The position numbers were made by a program, and so were the translations under genes. A stretch of DNA of 48,599 nucleotides. It comes from a virus. The stretch is from the IMG/VR virus record IMGVR_UViG_3300036861_000290, positions 1 through 48,599 of that record; one strand, written 5' to 3'. This document shows positions 1-36,825 of the stretch, in pieces (within the stretch, counting starts at the first letter, position 1; the number at the start of each line of letters is the position of its first letter). A model generated the notes under the pieces. The model saw only the letters and a list, made by a program, of their open reading frames with translations. It did not search any database and was not told where the DNA came from.

Positions 1-254
1 ATGCCCGTCAGCATGGAGGTGGAGGTGCGTGGTGGAGGTGTGCAGAGGGTGGCACCGATCACCACCCAAGCGGCCGCATCGCGGGACGGGATGTCACACC
101 CCTGCCCGCTCTACGCGGTCAGTCTAGGCACCCAGAGACCTCCATGTTCCAGATTTCGCTCCTCTGTCAACACGACACTTTTCAGCCTGTTTCCGCAGGT
201 CAGCGAGTTACCCCCTGTATGGGTACACCTACCTGTGAGGGACCTGACAGGGGG
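1..254. repeat. terminal direct repeat, left copy
   Basis: Bases 1-254 match 48346-48599 except at base 127 (G here, T at 48472). This shows that the sequence is circular or terminally redundant. The match is 126 bases, one mismatch and 127 bases, roughly twice 127, which would fit a de Bruijn contig opened at a strain variant. It may therefore be an assembly overlap and not a physical terminal repeat. The segment holds no convincing gene. It contains a G-rich stretch of GGAGGTG-like units at 14-50 and promoter-like motif copy A. Confidence 0.95.
204..241 (+). promoter_or_regulatory. conserved promoter-like motif, copy A
   Basis: Reads GAGTT, 3 nt, CCCTGT, 7 nt, CACCTACCTGTGAGGG. It is one of six full copies in the genome, each upstream of a transcription unit and in its direction; this one faces the rightward late operon that starts at 372. 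The CCCCCTGT half (211-218) is answered by ACAGGGGG at 247-254, giving an 8-bp inverted repeat across the site. No standard AT-rich -10 box is present, so the motif may serve a phage-specific factor or be an operator. Confidence 0.7.
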
Positions 255-371
255 TGATCCCGATGCAGACACACAGCATCGGTCGATGCCCGTCGTACCT
301 CTCCTGCACAGGTCCTCCAGCAGTCCCCCCACTCCCGACAGAGCAGACGAGCAGCATCAGAGGGGCGAACG
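255..371 (+). other. leader of the late operon, non-coding
   Basis: No gene is seen between motif A and the start at 372. The segment holds CGATGC (261-266), GCATCG (276-281) and CGATGC (284-289). The middle arm can pair with either outer arm, giving two mutually exclusive hairpins. A Shine-Dalgarno GAGGGG precedes the 372 start. Confidence 0.5.
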
Positions 372-752
372 ATGGCGAGAGTCGCACCGTTCTCTGATCC
401 GGCGAAGGCCCGCGAGGCGGCCGCGAAGTCGCTCGCGTCCAGGGCTGCGAACCGCGAGCTCCAGAAGGCCGATCCGGAGAGGTTCTTCCGTCAGGTCCTC
501 GAGGGCAAGCGGCAGAGACTCATCACACACCTGATCGACGCAGTCGAGGGCCGCGGTATCTTCTCGAACGAGGTCGAGTGCTCGAACTGTGGCCGGACTG
601 TCGAGGTCCCAGGCCTCCCGGCGGCGAGCCGGTTGAGCGCCCTCCAGACCGCCCTGGCGTACTCCGTCGGCAGGCCGAAGGCGGGAGTCTCGATGCTCGA
701 CCGACCGAAGGACCAGGAGACCGAAGAGCCCGAAGGGTTCAGCATCGAATGA
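372..752 (+). CDS. unknown protein, possible small terminase-like DNA-binding protein
   Basis: 126 aa, ATG start with a GAGGGG ribosome site. The N-terminal half is basic and helical; a CSNCG pair sits near residue 72. The stretch around residues 86-100 (leucine- and alanine-rich, then GRPKAG) resembles the 'homologous to LxLALAYxxGKP' helix of small DNA-binding phage proteins that often precede terminase. It is the first gene of the rightward operon and overlaps the next by ATGA. A small-terminase role is inferred only from position and general look; no domain was recognised with certainty. Confidence 0.6.
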   Translation: MARVAPFSDPAKAREAAAKSLASRAANRELQKADPERFFRQVLEGKRQRLITHLIDAVEGRGIFSNEVECSNCGRTVEVPGLPAASRLSALQTALAYSVGRPKAGVSMLDRPKDQETEEPEGFSIE

Positions 753-955
753 CACTCGGGGTCAACCATCCTGGTCTCCAGACGAAACAGTGGACGTGGG
801 ACGAGTGGACGAAGCTCGGCCCGAGCCGGCGGACGGAGGTCCTCATCGAGCTCCGTAAGCGGGCTGTGGACGAGAGAGTCCTCTGCACCATGACCGCTGA
901 CGTAGTCAGGACGTGGTGGAAGGCTCGGCCTAGGGCATACCGAGACGCGGTTTGA
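749..955 (+). CDS. small unknown protein, 68 aa
   Basis: Starts with ATGA overlapping the stop of the gene at 372. Tryptophan-rich (QWTWDEWTKL near the N-terminus, RTWWKARPR near the C-terminus), basic and soluble. Its stop overlaps the TTG start of the next gene, so it is translationally coupled in the pre-terminase cluster. No family recognised. Confidence 0.6.
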   Translation: MTLGVNHPGLQTKQWTWDEWTKLGPSRRTEVLIELRKRAVDERVLCTMTADVVRTWWKARPRAYRDAV

Positions 956-1368
956 GTCGCGAGTCATTCCTCTACTCGCCAGACCTCGCGGCGATCGGGC
1001 GGAAGCTCGGTAGGGAGTTCCCGATGGCTGAGGACGACTGGCGTAGCCATTACGGCCAAGGGCCGGACAAGACCCGCCGGCCCGAGTCCATGAGCCGGCA
1101 GCACAATAAGCGTCGCCGGACGGCGAGGCACGAGGGGCGACTCGTCGGTTGGCGGTACTACCTACGGTACGCGAAACGATACACGAGGAATCCGCTCGAT
1201 GCCCTTCGTCTCAGAGGCCCAGCGCCGGTTCATGTGGAAGAACCATCCCGAGATCGCTCGGCGGTGGGCCCACGAGTACCCCGGTCAGCACGATCTCCCG
1301 AAGCACAAGAGAGGCTCGAGAGTCCATCGCGCGATGCGGAAGCTCTCGAAGCTCCGGAGGCGCCATAG
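952..1368 (+). CDS. unknown basic protein, C-terminal part doubtful
   Basis: TTG start overlapping the previous TGA; 138 aa as an open frame. The first ~82 residues look like real protein (aromatic and basic, ending KRYTRNPLD). From about base 1199 the frame has the Pro/Arg/Ser composition of a non-coding frame, while another frame carries the recognisable gene at 1199-1372. Either the two genes overlap by 170 bases or the true 3' end is altered by a frameshift. Only the N-terminal half should be trusted. Confidence 0.5.
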   Translation: MSRESFLYSPDLAAIGRKLGREFPMAEDDWRSHYGQGPDKTRRPESMSRQHNKRRRTARHEGRLVGWRYYLRYAKRYTRNPLDALRLRGPAPVHVEEPSRDRSAVGPRVPRSARSPEAQERLESPSRDAEALEAPEAP

Positions 1369-1372
1369 ATGA
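1199..1372 (+). CDS. small conserved phage protein (MPF-SEAQRRFMW type), 57 aa
   Basis: ATG start with GAGGA nine bases upstream. The N-terminus MPFVSEAQRRFMW followed by NHPEIARRW is a small-protein signature I recognise from many phage genomes; its function is unknown. The protein is very basic, ending in a lysine/arginine cluster, which would suit nucleic acid binding or packaging. It lies inside the 3' half of the open frame that starts at 952, in another frame, and its TGA overlaps the ATG at 1369. Confidence 0.7.
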   Translation: MPFVSEAQRRFMWKNHPEIARRWAHEYPGQHDLPKHKRGSRVHRAMRKLSKLRRRHR

Positions 1373-1593
1373 TCCTCCCAGACGGCCCCTACAGCATCAA
1401 GTGCGACCGCAAGGGTTGCAAGAAGCGGACGAACTATGCGAGGGCTGGCTGGCTGAGGGTCATGAGCCTGACGGGCACTGACTCGAGAGACTTCTGCTCC
1501 GCAGAATGCCTCGCCGACTGGTCTGCCGCTGAAGCGGCCATGGTCGGCACACAGCCTGTAGAAGAGCCGAATCTTGTAGAGGAGCCGAGATGA
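1369..1593 (+). CDS. small zinc-ribbon protein
   Basis: 74 aa, ATG start overlapping the stop of the previous gene. Cysteines at CDRKGC and FCSAEC form a likely four-Cys zinc site in the first 50 residues, followed by an acidic Glu/Pro tail. It overlaps the next gene by ATGA. Role unknown; protein or nucleic-acid binding is the usual inference for such ribbons. Confidence 0.65.
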   Translation: MILPDGPYSIKCDRKGCKKRTNYARAGWLRVMSLTGTDSRDFCSAECLADWSAAEAAMVGTQPVEEPNLVEEPR

Positions 1594-1877
1594 TCGCCGT
1601 CGGCTTCCCGCTCCCCTACCCTTCTCCCGGCGGCGCCGCTACGGCCGTCGGAGACCACGGCGACGTCGCGGCGTACATCGTCGTCGCTGTCTTCTGGACA
1701 GTCATGCTCTTCCTCGTCTGGCTCGGCAGCCGGGCAAACCCTTCGACTCCTCCCGACGACGGCGGCTGGGACGGTCCGGACGACTTTCCTCCAGACATCC
1801 CGCCCGATCCACGGGAAAAAGACCTCTTCGTCCCGCCTGAGTGGACGAGAGACTACGACCTCGCGGGTGTCCGCTGA
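1590..1877 (+). CDS. small single-pass membrane protein
   Basis: 95 aa. One hydrophobic segment at about residues 27-48 is followed by an acidic, proline-rich cytoplasmic-type tail (many D/P residues). It sits between two zinc-ribbon genes just before the lipoprotein and terminase, with 4-base overlaps, so it is co-translated. Function unknown; an envelope role together with the lipoprotein at 2092 is possible. Confidence 0.6.
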   Translation: MIAVGFPLPYPSPGGAATAVGDHGDVAAYIVVAVFWTVMLFLVWLGSRANPSTPPDDGGWDGPDDFPPDIPPDPREKDLFVPPEWTRDYDLAGVR

Positions 1878-2095
1878 TGCGCGGCTGGCTCTGCGCGAAG
1901 TGCGGCCGATCGTGGGCCCCCGGTGTCCCGAGTTGCGAGCCGTGCAACATCGTCGCCTCCGGCGGCGAGCGGGTCCTCTTCTTCCAGATGCCCGAGCCCG
2001 ATGCGGAGCCGCAGAAGGGCGACGGAGCTCCGACACTCGTCCCGAGACCGCCGGCAGAGAAGCCGAAGCCGCCGGCGCCTCCGGGATTCTTGTGA
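1877..2095 (+). CDS. zinc-ribbon protein with proline-rich tail
   Basis: 72 aa. The ATG at 1877 shares its A with the previous stop (TGATG) and gives MRGWLCAKCGRSW. Two CxxC pairs, CAKC and CEPC, about 12 residues apart, make a zinc ribbon. The last 25 residues are Pro/Lys-rich, like a flexible tether. Overlaps the GTG start of the lipoprotein gene. Function unknown. Confidence 0.65.
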   Translation: MRGWLCAKCGRSWAPGVPSCEPCNIVASGGERVLFFQMPEPDAEPQKGDGAPTLVPRPPAEKPKPPAPPGFL

Positions 2096-4022: not shown

Positions 4023-5996
4023 TTGGAGACGACCTATCGGAAGTACGCCGATGACGAGGCCAAGCTCAAGGTCTACGAGCGGCGCCTCTTCACAGCCGAG
4101 AACGATCTCAAGTCGTGGAAGACCTCTGCCGACGACGCTCTCGACCGATACGAGAACAAGCCCCGCGTCACTCAGCAGACGGGAGACGGCCACACCGTCA
4201 ACGTCCCCGAGGGCCTCTCGATCATCGACTCGATCTATGCCTCGCTGACGGCGACGGAGACCGACATCCTCCTGACGCCCCGAGGCAACACGACCGACGA
4301 CCAGGCCTACGTCGCGTCGACCGCCCTCGCCCAGGAGTGGGAAATCTGCAAGGTCGCCGACCGGACCAACGACGCCGTCAAGGACTCCCTCGTCGTCGGC
4401 ATCGGCTGGGCCAAGGTCGGCTACGAGTTCTTCGAGGACGAGATGGAAGTCCCTCGTCCCGACGACGATATCGTCTCTCAGATCGAGGACCTCCTCGGCC
4501 AGGCGGAAGCGGCCGGCGAAGAGGCTCCCGACTTCGACCAGATCAAGGCCTCCGTCCCTCTGACGGAGACCGAGAAGGTCGTCCTCAGCGACCGGATCGT
4601 CGTCGACTACGTCCCGTGGGACATGGTCCGGTGGGACCCGACGGCCAAGAAAATCCGTGACATCAGATGGGTCGCCCAGGTCTCGCTGATGCACGTCGAG
4701 GACATCAAGTCGAACCCTGTCTGGCGGGCCTATGTCTCCAGGACTCGAGGCGGACTCCGCCGGCTCGACAGCATCAAGGCCGACACCCAGCTCTCGAAGG
4801 AACTCCTCGGTTCGAGTACACCGACGAAGGAAGACGAGCGTCAGACCGTGATCGAGATGCACGACTTCGAGACCGGGACCGTCTGTACCTTCGGCGTCGG
4901 GACGGGCTTCTTCCTCAACGAGACTCCCGGCCTCTTCTCGATGAAGGACGACCTCGAGGACAAGTCGCCGTTCGTCCCGCTCGTCCTCCGTTCGAGCCCG
5001 CGGCGCGTCCGGGGCATCTCTGAGATGGACGTCCTCAAGCCGACGCTCGAGCAGGCAGACCTCTATGAGTCGAAGCTCGCGACCTACCTCGAGCGGATGT
5101 CGCCGAAGGTCATAGCCGAGGCCGGTTCGATCACCGAGTCCGGCAAGGCAGCCATCAAGTCCCAGGAGTACGGCGCCGTCGTCGAGTACAAGCCCGGAAC
5201 GACGAAGCCGGAGGCGTTCGCGCCGCCGGCCCTGATCGCCGAGCAGTACGCGGTCCCCGAGCGTCTCCAGCGGCAGATGCGGGAGTCGACGGGCGTAAAC
5301 GAGCTCCAGCGGGGCCTCTTCCCCGACCGGCGCAGGACTGCGACAGAGACGGCCGAAGTCGTCTCGGCATCCGCGGTCCGGGCGGCCGAGAAGCGGACGC
5401 GGCTCCAGGCGTTCTACATGGCGATCGCCGACCGAATCCTGATCCTGATGCAGACGTTCTACGAGGAGGAGCGGATTACCCAGCTCGTCGACTCCGCTGG
5501 CCCGATCCCCTGGAAGTGGAGCGCACAGGACATCACGGGCGACTACTCGCTCGAGGTCGCGCTCATGCCGAAGGAGTCGAAGACCTGGCAGACCCGGCGC
5601 GACGACTTCCTCGCCTTCCTCAATGTCTTCGGCCAGTTCGCACAGCCGAAGCCGGACGGTTCGACCATCCTCGATCCCGCGGAACTCCTCCGGTACGGCA
5701 TGATGGAGTACGGCATCCCGCGTCGGTGGATCGTCAAGTTCCTCCACCTCCCCGAGGAGCAGCAGCAGCAGATGTTGGCCGCCCAGCAGACCGCGGCCGG
5801 CATGGCGTCGGCCTCGGCCGGCCAGCCCCGGCCAGACATGGTCCCCGGTCCGATGAGCGCGTCGGCCCTCGCGGCCGCGTCGAACCAGGGCGAGATTCCG
5901 CCCGAGGTCCTCATGGCAGCGCAGGGCGGAGGCGTCGGTGGGCCACAGTCGGCCGAAGTCATCTCCGAGAGCGCGGGGGCGACCCCGCTGAGGTAG
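4023..5996 (+). CDS. portal protein
   Basis: 657 aa, TTG start immediately after the terminase stop. It forms the dodecameric ring at the capsid vertex. Evidence: size, position between TerL and scaffold/capsid, an acidic loop region near residues 145-185, a long helical region (residues 340-480) with the Arg/Glu pattern of portal stems, and a Gln-rich C-terminal segment with five glutamines in a row near residue 581. The Ala/Gly/Pro tail is typical of large podovirus-type portals. Confidence 0.85.
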   Translation: METTYRKYADDEAKLKVYERRLFTAENDLKSWKTSADDALDRYENKPRVTQQTGDGHTVNVPEGLSIIDSIYASLTATETDILLTPRGNTTDDQAYVASTALAQEWEICKVADRTNDAVKDSLVVGIGWAKVGYEFFEDEMEVPRPDDDIVSQIEDLLGQAEAAGEEAPDFDQIKASVPLTETEKVVLSDRIVVDYVPWDMVRWDPTAKKIRDIRWVAQVSLMHVEDIKSNPVWRAYVSRTRGGLRRLDSIKADTQLSKELLGSSTPTKEDERQTVIEMHDFETGTVCTFGVGTGFFLNETPGLFSMKDDLEDKSPFVPLVLRSSPRRVRGISEMDVLKPTLEQADLYESKLATYLERMSPKVIAEAGSITESGKAAIKSQEYGAVVEYKPGTTKPEAFAPPALIAEQYAVPERLQRQMRESTGVNELQRGLFPDRRRTATETAEVVSASAVRAAEKRTRLQAFYMAIADRILILMQTFYEEERITQLVDSAGPIPWKWSAQDITGDYSLEVALMPKESKTWQTRRDDFLAFLNVFGQFAQPKPDGSTILDPAELLRYGMMEYGIPRRWIVKFLHLPEEQQQQMLAAQQTAAGMASASAGQPRPDMVPGPMSASALAAASNQGEIPPEVLMAAQGGGVGGPQSAEVISESAGATPLR

Positions 5997-6000
5997 TCCG

Positions 6001-6189: not shown

Positions 6190-6235
6190 AGTCCGCTACG
6201 AGAACCTTACAAAACAACTCGCTGACCAGGGGAAA

Positions 6236-6275
6236 CGAGTTTTCCCCTGTGCGAGTACACCTACCTATGAGGGGG
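6236..6275 (+). promoter_or_regulatory. conserved promoter-like motif, copy B
   Basis: GAGTT, 3 nt, CCCTGT, 7 nt, CACCTACCTATGAGGG: same class as copies A and C. It faces the tRNA, scaffold and capsid genes. It overlaps a perfect 9-bp inverted repeat (6227-6235 with 6241-6249, five-base loop), so the CCCCTG half-site is present in both orientations, as in an operator. Confidence 0.7.
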
Positions 6276-6409: not shown

Positions 6410-6412
6410 CAC

Positions 6413-6485
6413 AGGGACGTAGTTCAGCGGTCAGAACGCCCGCCTCCAGAGCGGGATGTCGGGGGTCCGAATCCTTCCGTCCCTG
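6413..6485 (+). tRNA. tRNA-Trp (anticodon CCA)
   Basis: 73 nt with all four arms: acceptor 6413-6419/6478-6484 (7 bp perfect), D-stem GTTC/GAAC, anticodon stem CCCGC/GCGGG with loop CTCCAGA (anticodon CCA at 6446-6448), 5-base variable loop, T-stem with two G-U pairs and loop TCCGAAT; discriminator G at 6485, CCA not encoded. Odd points: A at position 24 pairing U11 (the state produced by the classical UGA-suppressing change in E. coli tRNA-Trp, though some bacteria have A24 naturally), G at 37 where A is usual, and C at 55 where the near-universal base is U/pseudouridine. Confidence 0.9.
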
Positions 6486-6577
6486 CGTTCTACACAAGGG
6501 GCACAACGCCTCGCTCCATCATCTAGCAGCTCCCGAGGCCTCGCGTTCTGCGCGGGGTACAGCAGCAAGGAGACGTC

Positions 6578-7594
6578 ATGGGCGACGGAGTACTCGCGGC
6601 AGCCGTCAAGGAGGCCGCGCTGAAGCAGGGTCTCAAGGAAGAGGGCGATCCAGGCATCGCAGTCGGATCGGTCGGCTCTTCGAGCGACCCAGAAGTCAAA
6701 GCGACCGCCGAGGAGGCGTTCGCTGCGGTACGAGCCAAGCAGGGCGAAGGCACAGCTCCGGCCGAGACCAAGCCCGACGAGACTCGTACGACTCCCGCTG
6801 AGGGAGCGCAACAGGACCAGGGTGCGACGTCCGAGGGCACAGCCACAGACGTCCCGGAGGAGTACTTCGGAATCTCACTCGCTGGACTGTCTGCGGAGGA
6901 CCGCGCGTCTGCAATCGCGGGGTTCAAGGAACGCGACACGTTCATCAACCAGCTCTTGCGGGACAAGGCTTCGGAAAAGCCTGGGGAGACCCAGGCGGCT
7001 CCGGCAGCTCCGTCCAGTGGAGCCGGCGACGAGCAAAAAGAGCTGACCGACGAGGTCCTCGCCAAGGCCCTAGGCCTCGATCTCGAGGACCCGTACGACG
7101 CCAAGATCGCATCGGTCGCAATCCCGCTCGCCCGACAGAACATCGAGCTCAAGTCGGCTGTCGAGGACATCATCTCGGACTCAGACGTCCGGGAGACCCA
7201 GAACTTCTGGGAGACGAGCCTCGACGCACTCGAGAAGCAGTTCGGCGACTTCCCCGTCCCCGAAGGGATGACGAAGGACGACGTCAGACTCCGCGTCTAC
7301 GAGTTCGCAGCCGAGAGCGGCATCGGAGACCCGAGCGCCGCATACTGGAGCATCATGGGACCTGCACGGGCCGACATCCTCAAGGACGTCCAGAAGCGGA
7401 AGGCCGAAGCCCTGACGAACAAGAAGCGGGCGGCCGCCGGAACGACTCGGCCGGCCACGGCCGCTGAAGTCGACGAGGCCAAGATCAAGTCCAAGGACCT
7501 CGGAGACGCCGTCAAGGAGGCTGCCGAGAAGGCGGCCAAGAATCTCGGCATCGACTGGGAAGCTGCTCGTCAGACCGCCATCCACCGTTCGTAG
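6578..7594 (+). CDS. capsid scaffolding protein
   Basis: 338 aa, directly before the capsid gene. It is acidic and almost entirely Ala/Glu/Lys-rich helix with a disordered Thr/Pro/Ala segment (residues 60-95, 130-150) and a basic C-terminal region, as in scaffolds that guide capsid assembly and then leave or are cleaved. No protease gene was recognised nearby. Identity rests on composition and position. Confidence 0.75.
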   Translation: MGDGVLAAAVKEAALKQGLKEEGDPGIAVGSVGSSSDPEVKATAEEAFAAVRAKQGEGTAPAETKPDETRTTPAEGAQQDQGATSEGTATDVPEEYFGISLAGLSAEDRASAIAGFKERDTFINQLLRDKASEKPGETQAAPAAPSSGAGDEQKELTDEVLAKALGLDLEDPYDAKIASVAIPLARQNIELKSAVEDIISDSDVRETQNFWETSLDALEKQFGDFPVPEGMTKDDVRLRVYEFAAESGIGDPSAAYWSIMGPARADILKDVQKRKAEALTNKKRAAAGTTRPATAAEVDEAKIKSKDLGDAVKEAAEKAAKNLGIDWEAARQTAIHRS

Positions 7595-9097: not shown

Positions 9098-9102
9098 CTC
9101 GC

Positions 9103-19789: not shown

Positions 19790-19809
19790 GAGGCCAATGG
19801 AAGACTTTG

Positions 19810-22800
19810 ATGGCAGACACACTCCCTGGTTCACTCCCTGCTCCGCGCGGCTTCCCTGCTCCCCGTGTCTTCCCGGCGCCGGGCGCTGATCCGACGGCGG
19901 GGAACCCGTATGCGTCTCAGGCTCCGAAGCCCGCGGCAGAGCTCCCCTGGTCTCCGCTCGCTCAGGCAGTCGGAGTCACGGAGCCCTCGACCCAGGACGA
20001 CGCCCTCCGGCAGATTCAGAACGCGATCACGAGGATCGCGACGGTCGATCCGAAACAGGCCGCCGAGCTCGAGTCCAGGTTCTCAGGCGCCCCGAAGGGG
20101 GGAGGGTTCTTCGGAGCCCTCAAGCACCTCGCCGGCGACATCCTGTCCCCCGCCCTCAGCATCGGCGGCAAGGCCCTCGACATCCTCGGTCGGACGTCTC
20201 ACCTCGTCCCCGCTCTCCTCGAACACGGGCCCGTCGGGTTCGTCCACGCCATCACCGGCGAAGACAAGACGAGCTGGGGTGACATCCTCAAGGACAAGGG
20301 CATTCTCCAGGGGCACGACCTCTTCTCGAAGATCGCACGCGGCATCACCGGGTTCGTCGGCGACGTCGCGACGGACCCTCTCACTTATCTGACGCTCGGC
20401 GCCGGGGCAGGCGTCTCCGCCGCGACCCGTGGAGCCCTCGCCGGCGAAGAGATCGCGGTCGCTGCGACGAAGACAGCAGCGGTCAAGGCGTTCGCCGAGA
20501 AGGGCGGAGAGAACTTCGTCCGTAGCGCCCTCCGCTCTCTCTCGAGCCAGGGCGACATCACACAGCTCATCGCCCGACGGGGGAACGACCTGACCGAACG
20601 ACTGATGTCGATAGCCGGCAAGGACATCAGCGAGACCGGCCGGGCCATCCTCGGGGACGCGGCAGACGCATGGGCCCAGGTCTACAACAAGGCCCAGGCC
20701 CGGACACTCGGCTCATGGTTCGCCGGCAACGGCGGCGACATCGTCCTCCAGTCTGGCCGAAAGCTCCTGCCCGCTGAAGGCAAGAGCATCATGGAGGACC
20801 TCATCAGGGCCGGGCAGTTCACGAAGGCCCGCGGTCCTGCGTGGGAGGCCTCGAAGCGTGCAGCGGCCGCCCTCGGCGGGATGCGTGCCAGGTTCGCCAT
20901 CCCGTTCACCAGCTTCCGGTTCATGTCCCCGTTCAACGTGGGGGCAGGCGTCATGGAGCGTTTCGGCGCCGGCGTCCTCGGCCGTTTCTTCACCGGCCAC
21001 GCCGCGGGCCTGGCGATCGACAGGGCCATCCGGGACGGAGACATGGGCGCTGGAGACCTCGCGACCTACCTCCAGCAGGGCTGGAAGGGGCTCCGGGAGT
21101 CGGCCAAGATCGACGAGCACCTCGCGGAGGTCATAGCCGCGGCCAAGCACCGCGGCCCCTGGTTCGCCTCTCCGTACTTCTCGGCCTCGGACGTCGTCGG
21201 CAACTTCACGAAGCAGTTCACCTCTGGCAAGGGCATGGCCCGGATCGGCCTCGGTGGCTACCTGACGAAGAACGCCATCGACGTCGCCAGGGCCCAGAAG
21301 GAACGGCTCGGCCGCGAGGCCCTCTACACGATCACGACGAAGGAAGGCCAGTCGCAGAAGGACAACATCATGCGACGGCTCTATTCGACTTTCGGGTACC
21401 ACCCGAGCGCCCGCGCGGAGGAGAAGCAGCTCAGGAAGCTCGGGCTGGCCGCTGCCGACCGCGACAACACCGTCTCGAAGTACCTCAGCTACTTCCCGGA
21501 GAGTGCCCCCGTCGGCGTCGACGACATCGCGACAGGCAGGCTCGACGAGTGGTTCTGGAGCCGCCCTGACACGGTCGCCGCCCTCGCGCGAGCGGGCCAG
21601 GACGAGGGCCGTCAGGCCGAGGCCCACCTCGCCCAGCAGGCCATCCTCGACGACATGAAGGAGACTGCTCGTCAGGTCCCGGAAGGGTCTGACAGGCGGC
21701 GTCTCCTCGAAGAAATCCGGACCCTGAAGAACCACGGTCGCGACACCGTCCTCCGGCGTGACACGCACATCGGGGACGTCGTCCACGACTGGGACGATGC
21801 CGGAGCCATCACCGAGGGCGACGTCATCAAGTTCACGGGCCCGAACCCGCCGATCAGCGACTTCTGGCTCAATGTCCCGACGGACATGTCGGCCGAGACG
21901 ATCGAGGCCGCCGGCGTCAAGGACCTCAAGCTGTCCCACGGGGACCTCGGGATCGTCGGTGTCCGCGGGACGTCGAAGCGGAGCGCCCGGTCCCTCCGGG
22001 TCGTCACCAACGCCCGCAACATCGTGACCGTCGACATGCGCCAGGGCGTCAAGCCGGAGTCCCTCGGCGAAGTCCTCAACGAGACGGCCCAGCACCAGGC
22101 GTTCCTCAAGGCGGCCGGCGAGGCCAGGGATCAGGTCAAGGAGCTCATCGAGGACGCCCATCCTCTCCTGGCGACCGAGCACCTCGCTGCCGACGCAGAG
22201 CACGAGGCCGTCGCCAACCTCGCGACCCAGGCATGGAAGACGAGGCCCGGCGAGGCTCCCGAGGCCTTCCGGTTCATCTTCGACGACCACCAGGAGATCG
22301 TCGTCCTCGATCCTCGGAAGCTCAAGGTCGTCTCACCAGAAGCGGCTGCCAACGTCGAGGGCCAGGGCTTCTTCCACCGGACGATCGCGCGTAGCATCCG
22401 TGGCCGGCTGACAGGGTCAGGCGTCAGCGCGACGGGCAAGAGCATCTTCGACTCCGCCGGTCAGCTCCGTGCATCGTACGCGAGGCAGACGCGGCACATG
22501 ACGCTCCCGGAGGCCGAGGACTTCGTCCGCGGCGAGCTCCGTAAGGCAGGCCTCGCTGTCAAGGACAGCGAGCCGGTCTTCGAGCACAACCTCCTGACCG
22601 TCCTCGACGACTACCAGTCGTACCTCGGCAGCGCACTCACCAGCCACCTCCTCGGCAACAGCCTCGCTAGGCTCGAGGCCCTCGGCAACCTCGTCCCGTC
22701 GGAGTTCGGGGGCTTCGTCAAGTACGACCCCGTCCGCATCCGTCTGACGAAGGGCCTCGCCAGGGCCCTCGATCGCCAGTCCAGCAAGCTCCAGCAGGTC

Positions 22801-25431
22801 GTAGCGAGGGCAGACCGTGTCCTGGCTCGGGCCTCCGACACTCAGGAGAAGGCCCAGGCTGCGCGAGCCGAACGGACCAGCAGGCTCCTGTCACACATCG
22901 AGGCAGGCCTCAACCTCGACGAAATCCCAGAGAGCAACCTGAGCCGGAACGCCCAGCGTCTCCTCCGGAACGAAGTCGACCTCGGAGAGGCCGTGGCGGC
23001 CGAGAAGGCGACTCTCGTCGACGGCCGTGTCCTCTGGCAGGACCGGATGATCGTGACGAAGACGGCCGTCGAGAAGCTCAAGGCCGCAGGTCTGGACGAC
23101 TCGACAGTCGAGCGGCTCCTTCGTGACGGCGAGGTCTACGTCTCTCCCCAGACGGGCGAGGTCCTGACGAAGAAGGGCATCGCTCGGAAGGGCGGAGTCC
23201 GCGTCTACCATCCAGAGTTCATCCAGGGCGAGATGGCCGCCCTCGACAAGCGGACGGCAGAGCTCGATCGGATCGCCAACGAGGCGTTCCCGGTCCCGAG
23301 GCCTCCGCTCCGGAACAGCATCCCCGGTGCGTGGCAGGAGGACCCGAACGCCGAGCTCGTCCCGATCTCCACCATCGACGAACACGTCGAGACCTTCCCC
23401 CGTGGTCCGGGAGACCTTAGTCCTGAAGGACTACACGCGGGGCACTCGGACGAGTGGTGGGCCGACACAAAGGCCTCGCTCGAGAAGGACGGCCTCGAGA
23501 AGCCCGTCACGCTCTCGAAGTTCGAGGACAAGCTGATCCTCGTCGACGGCAACCACCGTCTCGCCATCGCGAAGTCCCTCGGCTGGACGCACATCCCGGC
23601 CGTCGGGCGGGAGACAAAGGTCACGTCGATCCTAGAGACGCTGACGAACGCGAAGGGGACCGAGACCAAGTGGCTCAAGCCCTCGGACATCGACCCTGTC
23701 TTCCGGCAGACTCCTGGACGAGCAGTCGGTACGGCCTCCAGAGAGGCGGCCCGGACGACCGAGAAGGTCGCGGCCAACTTCGACGAGGCAGTCCGCCGGC
23801 TCGAGAAGCAGACCTCAGAAGACGCGATGCGCGTCGGCCGGATGCGACGTGAAGTCCAGTCGGCCTTCAAGGAGCGGAACCGCCTCCAGGCGGAGTCCCG
23901 CGGACTCGTCGCCGACATCCAGCCTGCGGTCGTCCTCGACGCAAAGAGCGCCGACCACCTCGGATTCCTGCCCGTCCAGGCCCCCGGCCTCAGCGGAATC
24001 TGGGTCCATCCGTACATCGGTGAGGAGATGGCGTGGGCCCTCGGCGGGAAGCCGATCAGCTTCCTCCGGCAGGAGTGGCGGAAGTACGCCCTCGGCCCGT
24101 GGAAGCGGTGGGCGACCTACCGAAACCCCGGCTTCCATGTCCGGAACACGATGGGGATGTGGTTTATGAACATCCTCGGCGGCGTGACTACTGCTGACAT
24201 GGAGAGCGCACACAGGGTCATCATGGGCCACTCGAACTACAAGGGGTACGCGCTCAAGGAGCTGACCCCGGTCGAACGGGCACGCATCGGGATCGACATG
24301 GTCCCCGGTCTCCGTGGCAAGAGGGTGACGTACGGCGACATCGCCGACCTGACGGCAGACATGGGGATCGGCCGAGCGAACTCTGTCGCCGTCCGGTTCG
24401 CTGATGAGGTCGGATCACGAGTCCCTGTCGGCAAGGACGCGCAGAGGCTCCGTCGGCCGTTCCAATGGGTCGACCGGAACCTCCAGAACGTCGGGTCGAC
24501 GACGGAGGAGTGGGGCCGGGTCAGCGCATGGTTCGCCGGCATGGCCTCCAGCAACGGCGACCTGAGCGCAGCCAGGGCGTTCGTTATGATGCGTCACGGC
24601 GACTACGCCGACCTGACGCCGGCGGAGGACTTCATCAAAGACCTCGTCCCGTTCTACAAGTGGATGAGGACATCGCTCCCGTTCCACGTCCGGATGCTCG
24701 CTGCCAACCCTGGCGCGTTCCTCGCGATGACCGACAAGGCGAAGAGCGCGGTCTACACGGCCGAGGGCTTCGACCGGCAACAGTTCGAGAAGTACCAGCC
24801 GAGCTGGATGCACGGCCGTATGTACCTCCCGCTGCCGGGCTCGACGGCCGAGGCCTCGAAGTACGTCCTCGCCGACCTCCCGTACGCGGACGTCTACCGA
24901 GGCTTCAGCGACTACCTCTCGTCCTCGCTGCCCATCGCTCGGAACATCATCGAGTCCTTCGGCATCCACCAGACCGTCTTCACTGGCAGGCCACTCGGGA
25001 CAAAGCTGGTCCCGGTCGCGTCGTGGCTCGACTTCCCAGGCGCCCATCAGTTGATGGCCGCCATGCCCTACGCGCAGACGGGCCCTGACGGCAGAATCTA
25101 CATCCCGGATACCATCGACAACGTCCTCGGCGCGTTCCCGGCCTACGCGCGGTTCCGCAACTGGCTGTCAGAGGACCCGGCACGAGTCGACAACAGGACG
25201 AAGTCGCTCCTCTCGTGGTTCGGTCTCCCGTTCCAGAAGTCGACCGCGACCATGGCCGAGCAGGACTTCTACTGGTCCGAGATCGTACCGGCACTCGAAC
25301 ACATGAAGAGCATGGGCGTCGAGCTCCCGACACTCGCGGAGCTCCACAAGGCCGGACAGGTGACGGCCGACGCCTTCACCTATCCGAGCTTCGACGAGAT
25401 GTTCCCGACTGGCGTCGTAGGAACATCCTAG
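19810..25431 (+). CDS. giant internal virion protein with ParB-like domain
   Basis: 1,873 aa from the ATG at 19810 (GGAAG six bases upstream; a TTG at 19807 is too close to it). N-terminus is Pro/Ala-rich. Most of the chain is helical and soluble. Near residues 1184-1262 lies a ParB/sulfiredoxin-like segment: LVPISTID, a helical part with a D-E-W-W stretch, and VDGNHRLAIAKSLGW, the typical DG-H-R core. Near 1437 the block RNPGFHVRNTMG followed by a hydrophobic stretch resembles domains of phage polyvalent and ejected proteins. Size and position as last virion gene before lysis fit the largest ejection protein of podoviruses, which crosses the envelope. A tape measure is the alternative. Confidence 0.75.
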   Translation: MADTLPGSLPAPRGFPAPRVFPAPGADPTAGNPYASQAPKPAAELPWSPLAQAVGVTEPSTQDDALRQIQNAITRIATVDPKQAAELESRFSGAPKGGGFFGALKHLAGDILSPALSIGGKALDILGRTSHLVPALLEHGPVGFVHAITGEDKTSWGDILKDKGILQGHDLFSKIARGITGFVGDVATDPLTYLTLGAGAGVSAATRGALAGEEIAVAATKTAAVKAFAEKGGENFVRSALRSLSSQGDITQLIARRGNDLTERLMSIAGKDISETGRAILGDAADAWAQVYNKAQARTLGSWFAGNGGDIVLQSGRKLLPAEGKSIMEDLIRAGQFTKARGPAWEASKRAAAALGGMRARFAIPFTSFRFMSPFNVGAGVMERFGAGVLGRFFTGHAAGLAIDRAIRDGDMGAGDLATYLQQGWKGLRESAKIDEHLAEVIAAAKHRGPWFASPYFSASDVVGNFTKQFTSGKGMARIGLGGYLTKNAIDVARAQKERLGREALYTITTKEGQSQKDNIMRRLYSTFGYHPSARAEEKQLRKLGLAAADRDNTVSKYLSYFPESAPVGVDDIATGRLDEWFWSRPDTVAALARAGQDEGRQAEAHLAQQAILDDMKETARQVPEGSDRRRLLEEIRTLKNHGRDTVLRRDTHIGDVVHDWDDAGAITEGDVIKFTGPNPPISDFWLNVPTDMSAETIEAAGVKDLKLSHGDLGIVGVRGTSKRSARSLRVVTNARNIVTVDMRQGVKPESLGEVLNETAQHQAFLKAAGEARDQVKELIEDAHPLLATEHLAADAEHEAVANLATQAWKTRPGEAPEAFRFIFDDHQEIVVLDPRKLKVVSPEAAANVEGQGFFHRTIARSIRGRLTGSGVSATGKSIFDSAGQLRASYARQTRHMTLPEAEDFVRGELRKAGLAVKDSEPVFEHNLLTVLDDYQSYLGSALTSHLLGNSLARLEALGNLVPSEFGGFVKYDPVRIRLTKGLARALDRQSSKLQQVVARADRVLARASDTQEKAQAARAERTSRLLSHIEAGLNLDEIPESNLSRNAQRLLRNEVDLGEAVAAEKATLVDGRVLWQDRMIVTKTAVEKLKAAGLDDSTVERLLRDGEVYVSPQTGEVLTKKGIARKGGVRVYHPEFIQGEMAALDKRTAELDRIANEAFPVPRPPLRNSIPGAWQEDPNAELVPISTIDEHVETFPRGPGDLSPEGLHAGHSDEWWADTKASLEKDGLEKPVTLSKFEDKLILVDGNHRLAIAKSLGWTHIPAVGRETKVTSILETLTNAKGTETKWLKPSDIDPVFRQTPGRAVGTASREAARTTEKVAANFDEAVRRLEKQTSEDAMRVGRMRREVQSAFKERNRLQAESRGLVADIQPAVVLDAKSADHLGFLPVQAPGLSGIWVHPYIGEEMAWALGGKPISFLRQEWRKYALGPWKRWATYRNPGFHVRNTMGMWFMNILGGVTTADMESAHRVIMGHSNYKGYALKELTPVERARIGIDMVPGLRGKRVTYGDIADLTADMGIGRANSVAVRFADEVGSRVPVGKDAQRLRRPFQWVDRNLQNVGSTTEEWGRVSAWFAGMASSNGDLSAARAFVMMRHGDYADLTPAEDFIKDLVPFYKWMRTSLPFHVRMLAANPGAFLAMTDKAKSAVYTAEGFDRQQFEKYQPSWMHGRMYLPLPGSTAEASKYVLADLPYADVYRGFSDYLSSSLPIARNIIESFGIHQTVFTGRPLGTKLVPVASWLDFPGAHQLMAAMPYAQTGPDGRIYIPDTIDNVLGAFPAYARFRNWLSEDPARVDNRTKSLLSWFGLPFQKSTATMAEQDFYWSEIVPALEHMKSMGVELPTLAELHKAGQVTADAFTYPSFDEMFPTGVVGTS

Positions 25432-30870: not shown

Positions 30871-31016
30871 GCCGCGTCCTCCTCGTGCTTGTGGGCGTCC
30901 TTGAACGCGCGGATCAAGAGATTCATCTCGCGAAGGTTGGAGACCATGATCGTTATCTCGATGTAGCAGACGCGACACCGCTCCAACCTCGTGATAGACA
31001 GAACCCGTGTGCTCAT
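30867..31016 (-). CDS. tiny Cys-containing protein, 49 aa
   Basis: ATG at 31016 overlaps the stop of the helicase gene (ATGA) and its TGA overlaps the next ATG. It has one CRVC pair followed by a hydrophobic stretch and a charged, acidic end (AHKHEEDAA). Its coding status rests on the perfect overlap pattern and the unused space otherwise left between two genes. Confidence 0.5.
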   Translation of the reverse strand: MSTRVLSITRLERCRVCYIEITIMVSNLREMNLLIRAFKDAHKHEEDAA

Positions 31017-32008
31017 TCGTCCTCCTCCTGCTCGTCGCTCTCGATGTTCTCGAAGCTGTCGTTGACGCCTTGTTCCACTGGCTGCATGAACTGACTCAGA
31101 CCCTTGCTCTTGAGACGGATGCCCTCGAGCTCGAGGTGGACTCCCGGCCGATTCTTGACGAGCTGGAGGTGGGTCGAGTCCTTGTACTTCTTGACCCGCT
31201 CGACCGCGTCCGCGTACTTCTCTGCATCGAACTTCTCGCCGTACCTCGACTCGGCTGCATCCGGGCTCATGTTGCCGAGCCGGTTGAGCGCGAGACGGTA
31301 CGTCGTCAGGATGATGTCCGCCGAGCTCTCTCCGCCGTGCATCAGGCTCTCGGAGCTCAGCGGGAAGCTGCCGTCCCCGCCCTCTTCACGTCCGACGTGA
31401 TGGAGGACGACGACCACGATGTCCTCTTCGCGGGCCCAGACGACCATGTCTTCCATCAGACGAGGGACGCGAGACCCGTCCTTGCCCGAGTACTTGTCTC
31501 GGAAGACGAGGTTCGAGTAGTCGAGGAAGACGATCCTCGGCCGCTCCTCCGACTGGAACTCCGCCACCTCGAGCCACGCACTCAGGTCGTCGAAGTCGGG
31601 GCGCCGGCCCTTCGTCATGCTGAGACGAGCAGCCAGTCGCCGGTACTCGCGGACGACTCTCTTCGTCGACGGGTGGTCCCAGTGGTCCTCGAGGTACTGT
31701 TGTGGCCGCTGGCTGATGACAGAGGCCAGCTTGCCGACGTAGGTCTCGAGCGTCTCGTCGAGTGTCGCCAGGCCCACGGGCATTCCGGCCTGGAGGAGGT
31801 TCGAGACCCAGTTCAACATGATCGCCGTCTTCCTCGTGTGTGGCCTGCCGGCCAGTACTACGAACGTGCCGGGGCTGAACCCGCCTCGATGGAGCATCGA
31901 GTCCAGCCCCGTCCATCCCGTCTTGACCACGGGTCGCGTGTCGGTCGCTCGGGCTTCCCAGGCCGCTACCTGTTCGCCCGCACCGACTCCGTCGAACCCG
32001 TCGGCCAT
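31013..32008 (-). CDS. replicative helicase, DnaB/RecA-type
   Basis: 331 aa. Helicase core of the DnaB/gp4 group that unwinds DNA at the fork. Walker A region GRPHTRKT at residues 54-61 has Arg59 where Gly normally precedes the Lys, Walker B at VFLDY (Asp163), a LHHVGRE segment (DnaB motif III position) and GGESSADIILTTYRLALN with an arginine-finger-type region. No DnaG-contact N-terminal domain is seen; the phage has its own AEP-type primase. Acidic C-terminus (DEQEEDE). First of a coupled gene chain; motif F lies upstream. Confidence 0.85.
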   Translation of the reverse strand: MADGFDGVGAGEQVAAWEARATDTRPVVKTGWTGLDSMLHRGGFSPGTFVVLAGRPHTRKTAIMLNWVSNLLQAGMPVGLATLDETLETYVGKLASVISQRPQQYLEDHWDHPSTKRVVREYRRLAARLSMTKGRRPDFDDLSAWLEVAEFQSEERPRIVFLDYSNLVFRDKYSGKDGSRVPRLMEDMVVWAREEDIVVVVLHHVGREEGGDGSFPLSSESLMHGGESSADIILTTYRLALNRLGNMSPDAAESRYGEKFDAEKYADAVERVKKYKDSTHLQLVKNRPGVHLELEGIRLKSKGLSQFMQPVEQGVNDSFENIESDEQEEDE

Positions 32009-32011
32009 CGG

Positions 32012-32557
32012 CTAGTCCTCGTCCTCGTCGCTGCCCTCGTCTTCGTCCTCGTCCTCATCGGCCGCCTTCTTGGGGGCGACCAGGACCTTCGCGAACTTCC
32101 GGACGAAGGCGTTGCGGTTCTTCGTCGACGCGAGGAACTTGACGTAGTTCTTGCCCGACTGGCCCTCGCGGGCTCCGTACTCCTCGGCGTCGTCGGCCGA
32201 CATGTCGACGACCTCCCCGAGGGTCAGGCCCTTGAACATGCCGCCGTTGAGCTCGAGCTCGCGGGCCTGCTTGACCGTGATCTTCCCGTTGCTCCGCGAT
32301 CCGCTGGACTTCGAGCTCCGGCGCTTCTTAGTGCTCGTCTCGCCGTCGCCCGACCCAGCCTGCTCACGAAACATCTCGTTGTCCGCTTCGACGATCGGGT
32401 CGAGGAGATCGAGCGTCGCAGTGAAGCGAGCGTCGAAGTACTCGTCGGCCTTCGCGGTCGTCTTGAGGACGCCGGCGGTCACGAGTGCGGCCACGATCTC
32501 GGCCGCCCCGTTCGCGGCGGTCTGAGCCGCCGTCGTCTTGTCCTTCTGGAAAGCCAT
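32012..32557 (-). CDS. acidic-tailed protein, ssDNA-binding-like or ExoX-C-like
   Basis: 181 aa, ATG start with GGAGGAAGG ribosome site. N-terminal helical region, a Lys/Ser-rich linker, and a domain around residues 105-145 (GMFKGLTLGEVVDM...YVKFLA) that resembles the DUF3820/ExoX C-terminal module. The last 16 residues are nearly all Asp/Glu, like the acidic tail of SSB proteins that recruits partners. It is located between motif F and the helicase gene, so a replication role is inferred; no OB-fold motif seen. Confidence 0.65.
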   Translation of the reverse strand: MAFQKDKTTAAQTAANGAAEIVAALVTAGVLKTTAKADEYFDARFTATLDLLDPIVEADNEMFREQAGSGDGETSTKKRRSSKSSGSRSNGKITVKQARELELNGGMFKGLTLGEVVDMSADDAEEYGAREGQSGKNYVKFLASTKNRNAFVRKFAKVLVAPKKAADEDEDEDEGSDEDED

Positions 32558-32617
32558 CCTTCCTCCTCTGGAAGCACGCCTCGACGGGCATCCGCCTCCG
32601 GGTCTGTGGGGCCTCAG

Positions 32618-32658
32618 CCCCTCCTACAGGTAGGTGCAACGCACAGGGAGAAACTCAA
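32618..32658 (-). promoter_or_regulatory. conserved promoter-like motif, copy F
   Basis: On the minus strand: TTGAGTT, 3 nt, CCCTGT, 6 nt, CACCTACCTGTAGGAGGG. It faces the acidic protein and helicase genes in the middle of the leftward operon. Its start overlaps the TGA of the metallopeptidase gene. A GGGGC/GCCCC hairpin (32608-32621) lies right at its downstream edge. Confidence 0.7.
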
Positions 32659-34382: not shown

Positions 34383-34501
34383 ACTTCCTCCTCTTCGTAC
34401 TCGATGACCTGACAGTCGAGCGTGTCCTCGAGCTCGACGCGGAGGTCGTCCTCTGACTGCGCCTGCTCGAACCTCAGGATGACTGTGATCTCCACGGCCA
34501 T
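34379..34501 (-). CDS. tiny acidic protein, 40 aa
   Basis: ATG at 34501 overlaps the primase TGA. Acidic, ending in a run of glutamates (EYEEEEV). It fills the only space between primase and the 34143 gene and keeps both 4-base overlaps. Confidence 0.5.
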   Translation of the reverse strand: MAVEITVILRFEQAQSEDDLRVELEDTLDCQVIEYEEEEV

Positions 34502-35598
34502 CACTCCCTGCCCCTCTTGGTCCTCAGTCGTCCCTTGGCGTTCTTCAGGTCGTCGTGGAGGAGACTGACGACCTCGTCGGTCCTCTCCCCCATCGTGACT
34601 ACGACGTTCTCGCCCTCCGCTGCGTGACGGAGCTGGCCCGGTCGTGTGTAGAGGCCGGCCGTCCGTTCCCGGATACAGAGCTCGCCACACTGGCGGTCTT
34701 CCGGCAGTAGGTGGCAGAGCGGACCCGATGTCTTCGAGCTCTCGAGGAGCATCTCGAGTTCTCCACCGTCAAGCGGCGGCGAGCACTTCTTGTTGACGTC
34801 GTCGATGACGAGAGACGTGTACTCGTCGTCGACTCCCGCCCTACGGAGCATGGTCGAGAGGTGGAAGAGCTGGATGTTCCTGCTCCCCTCCTCGGCCCCG
34901 TCTGCCTGGATCGCCTCCATGCACGGGAACCTGGTGTCCGAGACTGCTCGTCGCGCGTGCTGTTCCTCCGGGAGCTCTGCGAGGATCGCCTCGAAGTCTT
35001 CGACGGGCATCGGACGAGGGACCTTCTTCGTGAAGTCGTAGAGCCTGCGGGAGACCTGATGGACACCGCCCGGCAGCTTGACGAGGTTGCCGAGGTCTCG
35101 GACTTCGTCTTGCTTCGGGAAGACTTCACACGTCACGCCGGCGACGGCGAGGACTGCACGCCCGAGTCGACGGAGGTCGCGTGCCGGGACGTAGTCGTCG
35201 AGGACGACCCAGACATGCCACCCCTTGCTGCCTGAGAACTCAGTCGACCGCGCAGACAGCGGGACTCCGAACTCTTTGAGGGCCGCGTGGATCGCTCGAC
35301 GGATCGTCTTGTCCTTGTCCATCTCGTCGATGTCGAAGACGAGGGTCCGCGCGATCGTCTCGCTCCCGACCTTGTGTCCGACGTATGTCCCGACCGTCTT
35401 CAGGAGCCCTACGTGTGCTCGCAACACGCTGTCTCCCAGCGGTTTTCGGACTGGCTTCCAGGAGCCGTCCTCCTGCTGGAGTGCGTAGGCGGCGGGATTC
35501 CCGACGAGCTGCCTGAGCTGACGGACCTCGATCCCGACACGGGGCGGGTCCTTCGGCGCCTTCCTGTTGACGAGGCGGCTCTTCTCGGCGGCGTTCAT
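34501..35598 (-). CDS. DNA primase, archaeo-eukaryotic (AEP) type
   Basis: 365 aa from the ATG at 35598; the longer frame upstream is not needed because that ATG overlaps the previous stop. AEP motifs: LVFDID (Asp89, Asp91), FSGSKGWH (Ser and His128), and NLVKLPGGVHQ (residues 171-181). The C-terminal third contains a Cys-rich loop (CHLL...CGELC) of unknown role. The AEP fold synthesises RNA or DNA primers, so with the helicase at 31013 and polymerase at 36986 it completes a self-contained replisome. Confidence 0.85.
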   Translation of the reverse strand: MNAAEKSRLVNRKAPKDPPRVGIEVRQLRQLVGNPAAYALQQEDGSWKPVRKPLGDSVLRAHVGLLKTVGTYVGHKVGSETIARTLVFDIDEMDKDKTIRRAIHAALKEFGVPLSARSTEFSGSKGWHVWVVLDDYVPARDLRRLGRAVLAVAGVTCEVFPKQDEVRDLGNLVKLPGGVHQVSRRLYDFTKKVPRPMPVEDFEAILAELPEEQHARRAVSDTRFPCMEAIQADGAEEGSRNIQLFHLSTMLRRAGVDDEYTSLVIDDVNKKCSPPLDGGELEMLLESSKTSGPLCHLLPEDRQCGELCIRERTAGLYTRPGQLRHAAEGENVVVTMGERTDEVVSLLHDDLKNAKGRLRTKRGRE

Positions 35599-35789
35599 TC
35601 CTGGACCTCGAGGACTCGAGTGATCCGGACTTCGACCCATCGTTGGGCATGACACCCGTCGTCAAGACAGAACTGAGTGAACGATCCATCAGGCTGTCCC
35701 TTGATCGGACCCCACCGATGACGCAGTTCGTAGGTCCTACGAATCCGGCCTTCGCCGCCTTGGCTGACGCGGGCGTCGTCACCTTTCAC
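35595..35789 (-). CDS. small unknown protein, 64 aa
   Basis: GTG start in a GTGA overlap with the tiny membrane gene; its TGA overlaps the primase ATG. N-terminal charged part, C-terminal beta part with FCLDDGCHAQRW; the Cys pair and His could bind zinc. Confidence 0.55.
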   Translation of the reverse strand: MKGDDARVSQGGEGRIRRTYELRHRWGPIKGQPDGSFTQFCLDDGCHAQRWVEVRITRVLEVQE

Positions 35790-35881
35790 GAGAGTCCTGC
35801 CGTCATATGGAGGATGAAGTAGACCGTCCCTGTGAAGAAGAACGAGACGCCTGCGGCCATGAAGAAGTCCTGGAGTCTCAC
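35786..35881 (-). CDS. tiny single-pass membrane protein, 31 aa
   Basis: GTG start and TGA stop both in 4-base overlaps. One hydrophobic helix spans most of the chain (MAAGVSFFFTGTVYFILHM). Without it the spacing between the MazG-like gene and the 35595 gene would be the only gap in the chain. Function unknown. Confidence 0.5.
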   Translation of the reverse strand: MRLQDFFMAAGVSFFFTGTVYFILHMTAGLS

Positions 35882-36198
35882 GAGAGGGCCTCCGCCCACG
35901 CGACGGCGACCGCCGCGACCTGGATCAACTCCTCTCGAATCTGGTCGAGCTTCTCGTGGAGCGGGTAGGTCAGCGGTGTGACCTGTCGAACGAGCGGCGG
36001 GAGGTCAGAGAGGCCGCCCTCGATCATGGCCTTCCCGACTTCTCCGAACTCCTCGCCGAGGATTCCGAGCCACGTTCCGCTGCTCAGGCCGGCCTGGTCA
36101 CCCCACTTCGCGTCCTGCCGGGCGCGCTCACGGATGACGTCCGCGATCGCGTCCGCCTGGGCGTCGGTCCTCATGTCGGGCAGCGTGTAGTTGCTCAC
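35878..36198 (-). CDS. MazG-like nucleotide pyrophosphohydrolase
   Basis: 106 aa. All-helical domain with ILGEEFGEVGKAM (metal-binding Glu pair near residues 49-53) and a second acidic helix REELIQVAAVAVAW. The family removes or adjusts (d)NTP and alarmone levels; in phages it is linked to nucleotide pools or starvation signals. Coupled to the endonuclease VII gene by an overlap. Confidence 0.8.
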   Translation of the reverse strand: MSNYTLPDMRTDAQADAIADVIRERARQDAKWGDQAGLSSGTWLGILGEEFGEVGKAMIEGGLSDLPPLVRQVTPLTYPLHEKLDQIREELIQVAAVAVAWAEALS

Positions 36199-36566
36199 CA
36201 GACTCCGCTCTTCTCCGTGATGACCGCTCGGACGTCGAGCGCATCAGGGTTCTCGTATCGGTAGATGTAGGCAGCCGCACCGAGGAACTTCGCGACCGTC
36301 CCGTACCTCGTCAGGACAAAGTGGTTGCATGTGATGCAGACGATGCCGCGGACGTACTTCCTCCGTTCCTCCGGCGGCATCTTCTTGAACCCTCTGACGT
36401 GTTGGTGGTCGATGACGGTCCACGCCGGCGTACCGTCCTTGCGGAGTGGCGGCTCCCTGCCGCAGACCGCACAGACGCCGCCCTGGACGTCGAACCACTG
36501 GTGTCGCCACCAGTCGATGTCGACCCCGTACTTCTTGAGAGTGCTCGTCGAGGGTTCTCTGACCAT
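36195..36566 (-). CDS. recombination endonuclease VII
   Basis: 123 aa from the ATG at 36566 (GAGG five bases before; GTG at 36569 is too near the ribosome site). Zinc-binding C32/C35 (CAVC) and C77/C80 (CITC) with VIDHQHVRGF between them (Asp53, His54) is the endonuclease VII/HNH-like fold that resolves branched DNA before packaging. The C-terminal helix region (AAAYIYRYENP) is also typical. First gene of the leftward operon. Confidence 0.9.
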   Translation of the reverse strand: MVREPSTSTLKKYGVDIDWWRHQWFDVQGGVCAVCGREPPLRKDGTPAWTVIDHQHVRGFKKMPPEERRKYVRGIVCITCNHFVLTRYGTVAKFLGAAAYIYRYENPDALDVRAVITEKSGVW

Positions 36567-36594
36567 CACTTCCTCTGAGGGACTGTCTCGTCTT

Positions 36595-36633
36595 CCCTCC
36601 TACAGGTAGGTGGCGGACACAGGGCAAAACTCA
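36595..36633 (-). promoter_or_regulatory. conserved promoter-like motif, copy E
   Basis: On the minus strand: GAGTT, 3 nt, CCCTGT, 6 nt, CACCTACCTGTAGGAGGG. It faces the leftward operon beginning with endonuclease VII, about 30 bases from its start codon. Same subclass as D2 and F (6-base spacer, GTAGGAGG end). Confidence 0.7.
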
Positions 36634-36639
36634 GGCCGG

Positions 36640-36677
36640 TGAGTTTGTCCCTGTGCGGCTACACCTACCTGTGAGGG
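36640..36677 (+). promoter_or_regulatory. conserved promoter-like motif, copy C
   Basis: GAGTT, 3 nt, CCCTGT, 7 nt, CACCTACCTGTGAGGG. Belongs to the A/B subclass. It faces the polymerase operon and is only seven bases from motif E in the opposite direction. Confidence 0.7.
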
Positions 36678-36787
36678 AGAAGGGGAGGGGGATGAGGGAG
36701 CTGAGTGAGGAGCGACGGGCAATCAAGGGCCCGGAGCGATAGGCAGCTTGTCTTGAGTTCTCCCCTGTGCGCGGCACATCGGGTCTG

Positions 36788-36825
36788 GGAGTTCCTCCCT
36801 GTGTCGGACACCTACCTGTAGGAGG
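36788..36825 (+). promoter_or_regulatory. conserved promoter-like motif, copy D2
   Basis: GAGTT, 3 nt, CCCTGT, 6 nt, CACCTACCTGTAGGAGG. The terminal AGGAGG also serves as ribosome site for the ATG at 36831, so this copy may give a nearly leaderless or very short 5' end. A partial copy lies 34 bases upstream. Confidence 0.65.

Follow-up and report, generated by a model that had tools for sequence, protein, structure and literature searches.

A two-part element repeated in the virus record IMGVR_UViG_3300036861_000290 (48,599 bases, G+C 64.6%; "the window" below means this whole stretch) is probably a middle/late phage promoter, used by the host polymerase with the aid of a phage factor. Its consensus is GAGTT-N3-CCCTGT-N6/7-CACCTACCTGT, which five copies in the window match exactly and a sixth matches with one mismatch. 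About ten related uncultured lineages (terminase 41-60% identical) have their own version of the element at equivalent places. The elements very probably represent a family-wide promoter type, in which a bacterial-type -10 box lies 10-12 bases downstream of a virus-specific box, and a small virus-encoded regulator probably switches these promoters on. The observed basis of this reading is the repeat itself, its orientation and positions, the layout and near-fixed spacing found in the relatives, and a region-4-like gene in most of them.

The initial annotation had placed the element at the start of every transcription unit except one, and this description held. A search for GAGTT-N3-CCCTGT-N(5-9)-CACCTACCTGT returned six exact matches (205+, 32626-32656-, 36602-36632-, 36641+, 36789+ and 48550+), compared to 0.00 expected from 100 shuffles; the copy at 6237+ deviates by one mismatch (CCTAT). 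The match at 48550+ duplicates copy A through the terminal repeat, and was not counted as an extra copy because positions 1-254 and 48346-48599 form a direct repeat. The sites had been located correctly, with positions given one base early because the base before GAGTT was included. The copies are as follows.

205-241, plus strand: copy A, exact match with a 7-base spacer, 5' of the terminase/portal unit (first called gene at 372); -10 counterpart TACCTGT at 230-236; same place as element A of the relatives.
6237-6273, plus strand: copy B, one mismatch, 7-base spacer; -10 counterpart at 6262-6268; same place as element B of the relatives.
36641-36677, plus strand: copy C, exact match with a 7-base spacer, pointing into the rightward DNA polymerase unit; back to back with copy E.
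36755-36768, plus strand: half copy D1, read from the sequence; upstream block only, the downstream (-10) block being unmatched.
36789-36825, plus strand: copy D2, exact match with a 6-base spacer, abutting GGAGGAGGTGATG of a 52-codon gene (36831-36989) that precedes the DNA polymerase gene.
36596-36632, minus strand: copy E, exact match with a 6-base spacer, pointing into the leftward replication unit, whose first gene (36195-36569) is endonuclease VII-like.
32620-32656, minus strand: copy F, exact match with a 6-base spacer, in the gap 5' of a leftward gene (32012-32557) and a DnaB-like helicase gene (31013-32008).

The weight-matrix check proposed by the initial annotation gave a clear separation within the window: a two-block matrix scored the six copies at 43-46 bits and the best unrelated site at about 10 bits, and each copy omitted in a leave-one-out analysis was recovered at 38-44 bits. 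The genes of the window are arranged in four blocks.

372 to about 27,765, plus strand: gene block 1, late/structural (terminase, portal, capsid, tail, endolysin).
About 36,569 to 27,328, minus strand: gene block 2 (endonuclease VII-like protein, primase, helicase, nucleotide kinase).
36,831 to 41,733, plus strand: gene block 3 (DNA polymerase, RNA ligase).
48,224 to 41,683, minus strand: gene block 4 of the gene map, mostly proteins of unknown function, in which the matrix gave no site.

Every copy is oriented into a gene block, in its reading direction as originally described. Gene blocks 1-3 each begin with at least one copy, while copies B and F are internal; copy B follows the portal gene (4023-5996) and precedes a tRNA-Trp and the gene at 6578 that lies ahead of the major capsid gene. 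The leftward unit running from about 48224 to 41683 is the one without an element, its best minus-strand matrix score being 2.5 bits.

Each full copy consists of an upstream block, GAGTT-N3-CCCTGT, and a downstream block, CACCTACCTGT followed by a purine tract. The two subclasses recognized earlier were recovered: copies A, B and C have a 7-base gap and then GTGAGGG, whereas copies D2, E and F have a 6-base gap and then GTAGGAGG. The upstream block thus slides by one base relative to the downstream block, which suits two separate protein contacts. Leaders measure about 60 bases for F, 130 for A and over 300 for B, the last including the tRNA-Trp; because D2 runs straight into GGAGGAGGTGATG, its leader would be a few bases long if transcription starts just 3' of the downstream block. 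The partial copy, with GAGTT at 36755, is indeed an upstream half alone: it retains GAGTTCTCCCCTGT, and CACATCGGGT stands where CACCTACCTGT would be. It lies 34 bases before D2 and is possibly a relic or an additional binding site.

The relatives were retrieved by a terminase search of IMG/VR, which returned 30 contigs at 42-60% identity and a few more through a profile; a DNA polymerase query retrieved no relatives alone and did so as an alignment. The initial annotation had held that absence of the motif upstream of the same genes in related phages would speak against its reading. The literal sequence is absent, with no exact match in IMG/VR and background only when mismatches were allowed in the first 30 terminase relatives, but several distant relatives have a phage-specific counterpart of the same layout at matching positions. 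The usual places are upstream of the terminase operon (A) and between the portal and scaffold/capsid genes (B). We compared the non-coding DNA at place A with that at place B within each contig, using 100 shuffles. An element common to both places beat 100/100 shuffles in each of L013, L003/L004, L014/L015 and L079. G005 has the element at A and B and a third copy downstream (gapped self-comparison, E=1e-8); the related pair G001/G004 has elements at both places, located by motif; and G002 and G003 have one upstream of the terminase plus a divergent pair.

Some further significant A/B pairs proved to be tRNA genes (L006, L009, L011). A tRNA-Trp occupies the portal-to-scaffold gap of the window (6413-6486), of L003 (10487-10560) and of these three contigs; in the window and in L003 it comes directly 3' of element B, and L009 has 16 tRNA genes within 8.3 kb. 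Repeated 10-mers in the intergenic DNA of the relatives were mostly codon-like noise and were abandoned, gapped self-comparison working instead. Other repeats were seen in non-coding DNA: four near-identical long hairpins, GCTCGTCGGGGAGCCC...GGGCTCCCCTGCGAGC, at 2071, 2455, 3086 and 4242 of L043 (G005), and a repeated GCTGCAGATGGTGAAACGCTGCAG with CCTAGG-centered palindromes common to G001 (around 42,400) and G004 (around 39,440).

Four of the related lineages have elements that converge on one layout. GGTTG-N11-TANNNGTAGRG was found in G001/G004, G002 (one copy with a single mismatch), L014 and L025, with N12 at place A of G001/G004. Among 22 less redundant records, exact GGTTG-Nn-TANNNGTAGNG occurred five times at n=11, once at n=12 and at no other n from 5 to 20, the mean for shuffled sequences at n=11 being 0.033; with one mismatch allowed, there were 10 matches at spacing 11 versus 0 for the reversed pattern. 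The elements of L003, L013 and G003 were found by their own repeated sequence and are thus not independent support for this pattern. A separate feature of this region is TGACC: in 7 of the 14 elements from relatives it precedes GGTTG by exactly 22 bases (background 0.0015 per position), and in window copy B it precedes the CCTGT box by 23 bases. It was seen only at late positions (L003, L013, L014, L025, G002 and window copy B).

The downstream half in the relatives reads TATAAG, TATGAG, TACTAG, TACCTG or TAATAG and is, by its sequence, a recognizable -10 region. Place B of L014 carries TACCTGTAGAGGG, close to TACCTGTAGGAGG of the window, and the upstream part of place A in G004, GAGTTTTTGGTTG, aligns with the GAGTT-N3-CCCTGT block. 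This alignment puts TACCTGT of the window in the -10 place, where together with the purine tract behind it the box would form a -10/start region. It gives the upstream block, at about -37 to -24, the place of a phage-specific box, which would stand in for the host -35 and be bound by a phage factor. The earlier statement that there is no standard -10 box is correct to the letter; TACCTGT nevertheless aligns with TATAAG, TATGAG and TACTAG of the relatives and so stands where a -10 would be. The spacing of the two blocks varies by 1 bp, being N10/N11 in the window and N11/N12 in G001/G004, a shift that a two-part contact would be expected to show.

Promoters read by an alternative sigma factor of the host could have the same two-part layout, 1-bp flexible spacing and host-like -10, and the sequence differences between phages would then reflect different hosts. 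The hosts of these phages may differ, and a complete phage sigma factor was not found in the ten records searched for one. However, the proximal box lies 10-12 bases from the -10, closer than in a usual -35/-10 pair, and most genomes with the element encode a phage protein with a domain of the -35-binding type; we consider this explanation unlikely. Repressor operators repeated at phage promoters, like the stoperators and operators of temperate phages, might produce several identical sites per genome and the back-to-back arrangement of C and E. Yet each site points the same way as the gene that follows it, the scanned proteins included no recognizable integrase or repressor, and a search of 84,980 bacterial and archaeal genomes turned up no close relative in prophage form (best terminase identity 22-28%, plus one short 35% segment). 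A pure operator is also less likely because the -10-like box, the purine tract following it and the near-fixed spacing are conserved, and we regard this explanation as highly improbable.

The conserved G-rich start region, which recalls T7-type promoters, raises the alternative of a promoter for a phage-encoded RNA polymerase, either T7-like or N4-like with a hairpin promoter. A 4-bp dyad is possible in the spacer of 6 of the 7 window copies (half copy included; two of them via a G-T pair), but is not seen in the elements of the relatives, and 1-bp spacing shifts are ill-suited to the rigid contact of a single-subunit enzyme. A T7-type polymerase (PF00940, RNA_pol) was absent from the window and all other records searched, although the T7 positive control was detected (1e-109), and the 1874-aa virion protein has no polymerase match. 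The N4-type hairpin was dropped given the missing dyad and the absence of a polymerase match, and a phage polymerase of either type seems very unlikely.

The best candidate for the regulator is a small sigma-region-4-like protein, encoded by the window and by most of the relatives with enough sequence to include the replication genes. Pfam Sigma70_r4 matched above cut-off in six relatives' records (G001-G005 and G008), with one open frame per record, and a profile search found a related protein in G014. Region 2 (Sigma70_r2) had no match in ten records, while positive controls were detected. The window counterpart is the following.

42315-42956, minus strand: candidate factor, a protein with a C-terminal sigma-region-4-like helix-turn-helix, near the far end of the element-less unit; start codon provisional.

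It aligned with the relatives' proteins at an hhalign probability of 77 over the common region, and was also picked up by the profile search, in whose profile the window sequence itself was included. The AlphaFold2 model was poor overall (mean predicted local distance difference test (pLDDT) score 65, predicted template-modeling score (pTM) 0.37), with a C-terminal helix-turn-helix at pLDDT about 90. Foldseek matched the model best to an extracytoplasmic function (ECF) sigma L (E=2.2e-3) and to isolated region-4 domains at template-modeling (TM) scores of 0.66-0.77. Although profile, structure model and Foldseek are each inconclusive alone, they point to this protein as the best candidate to recognize the element. 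In the window, G001, G002 and G004, the region-4-like gene lies in a block with no detected element; G003 is an exception. The protein at 43395-43868 (minus strand) was taken as the factor at first and was dropped because 42315-42956 aligns better with the relatives' proteins; it is a second small helix-turn-helix protein encoded in the element-less unit, and its match to sigma region 4 falls below threshold. On the sequence evidence, a phage-specific promoter dependent on a non-standard factor, as suggested in the initial annotation, fits best, with 42315-42956 (minus strand) as the candidate factor.

Because the relatives' proteins also weakly match Q families, we kept as the main rival a loading site for a Q-like or GafYZ-like antitermination factor, which would board polymerase at the promoter through an element in the spacer and then read through terminators. 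The region-4 proteins of G001 and G004 match Phage_antitermQ below cut-off (1e-4 and 4e-5), and that of G001 matches a Q-like PHROG (9e-6). The phage box falls within the -35/-10 spacer, which is where lambda Q binds, and the late unit spans about 27 kb with few promoters. Conversely, the element is present at replication units too, besides the late one, conservation ends near the presumed start with no downstream pause element seen, and the sigma-region-4 match is better than the Q match. Such a loading site is, in our estimate, rather unlikely.

Under the favored reading of a phage promoter served by host polymerase and a phage factor, the element-less leftward unit (41683-48224), presumed to be early, would be transcribed before the others, from a host-type promoter, and so supply the factor, most likely the 42315-42956 protein. 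The factor would then activate the replication units (C, D2, E and F) and the structural unit (A and B). A sigma-70 consensus scan upstream of the element-less unit found no promoter.

Several points weigh against this reading. The promoter identity, transcript starts, host enzyme, temporal order and binding protein are all things that we infer, and the link between the candidate protein and the element rests on co-occurrence. Pfam by itself does not recognize the window candidate, the region-4 match of G013 is very weak, and that of G003 falls in a short frame that closely follows an element. About ten relatives showed no common element in the A/B comparison, and in G001/G004 the element was seen at late positions only. 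Lastly, TACCTG is poor as a -10 hexamer, and the CCCTGT box of the window is unlike the GGTTG of the relatives.

A split-sigma scheme in this widespread uncultured phage family is a tentative and somewhat doubtful extension. In it, a phage protein consisting essentially of a sigma-region-4 domain would replace host region 4 and bind the box, at just 10-12 bp from the -10, with host region 2 still responsible for opening the -10; the box and its protein would have co-diverged between phages. We found no description of this promoter class in open-licence papers; the class and its probable regulator can now be assigned to a family of uncultured phages. Since each box can be matched with the candidate factor of its own phage, the family may offer a collection of promoter/activator pairs that work independently of one another, and could be used to test how far a region-4 domain can move from its usual distance to the -10.

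The record is classed as linear and probably represents a whole genome of about 48.3 kb, either circular or assembled as a circle, because the contig ends form a 254-nt direct repeat (one difference, G at 127 and T at 48472). No isolate exceeded about 32% identity to this phage family in the proteins compared. The 1874-aa protein of the structural block (19807-25431) contains a stretch weakly resembling ParB (residues 1213-1284), and annotated phages yielded no relative of it.

Compared with known systems, the elements resemble T7-type promoters as repeated phage-specific sequences with a G-rich start region, but differ in their two variably spaced blocks, in the host-like -10 of the relatives and in the lack of a detected T7-type polymerase. 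Judged against the sigma-70 family, the candidate factors have region 4 (by Pfam in six relatives, by profile comparison and fold in the window) and lack a region 2 match. Among the RinA/ArpU/Ltr late regulators of phages of Gram-positive bacteria, phi13 Ltr is proposed to use four direct repeats upstream of one late promoter, whereas here a single box near the -10 is repeated at several units, including replication units; neither RinA nor ArpU families appeared among the general Pfam or PHROG matches, which included no comparison aimed at those families. GafY/GafZ of the Caulobacter gene transfer agent is a phage-derived activator that helps sigma-70 polymerase at many scattered promoters with a poor -35 (PMC11150451); GafY binds far upstream and needs integration host factor (IHF), whereas the conserved box here adjoins the -10.

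T4 middle promoters, at which AsiA and MotA appropriate sigma, are alike in having a phage-specific box near the -10 in place of the -35. MotA boxes lie 12±1 bp upstream of the -10 (PMC2988021). The corresponding spacing is N11/N12 in the relatives and N11 and N10 in the window (N10 if counted from CCTGT), the window values lying at or just below the edge of that range, and the -10 is TATAAG/TATGAG in the relatives, with only TACCTG(T) in the window. The boxes here are CCCTGT or GGTTG rather than the MotA box TGCTTtA, and we therefore do not class these elements as T4-type MotA promoters. Two further differences set them apart: a sigma-region-4-like fold is the only predicted domain of the candidate factor, and the late structural unit also carries the element.

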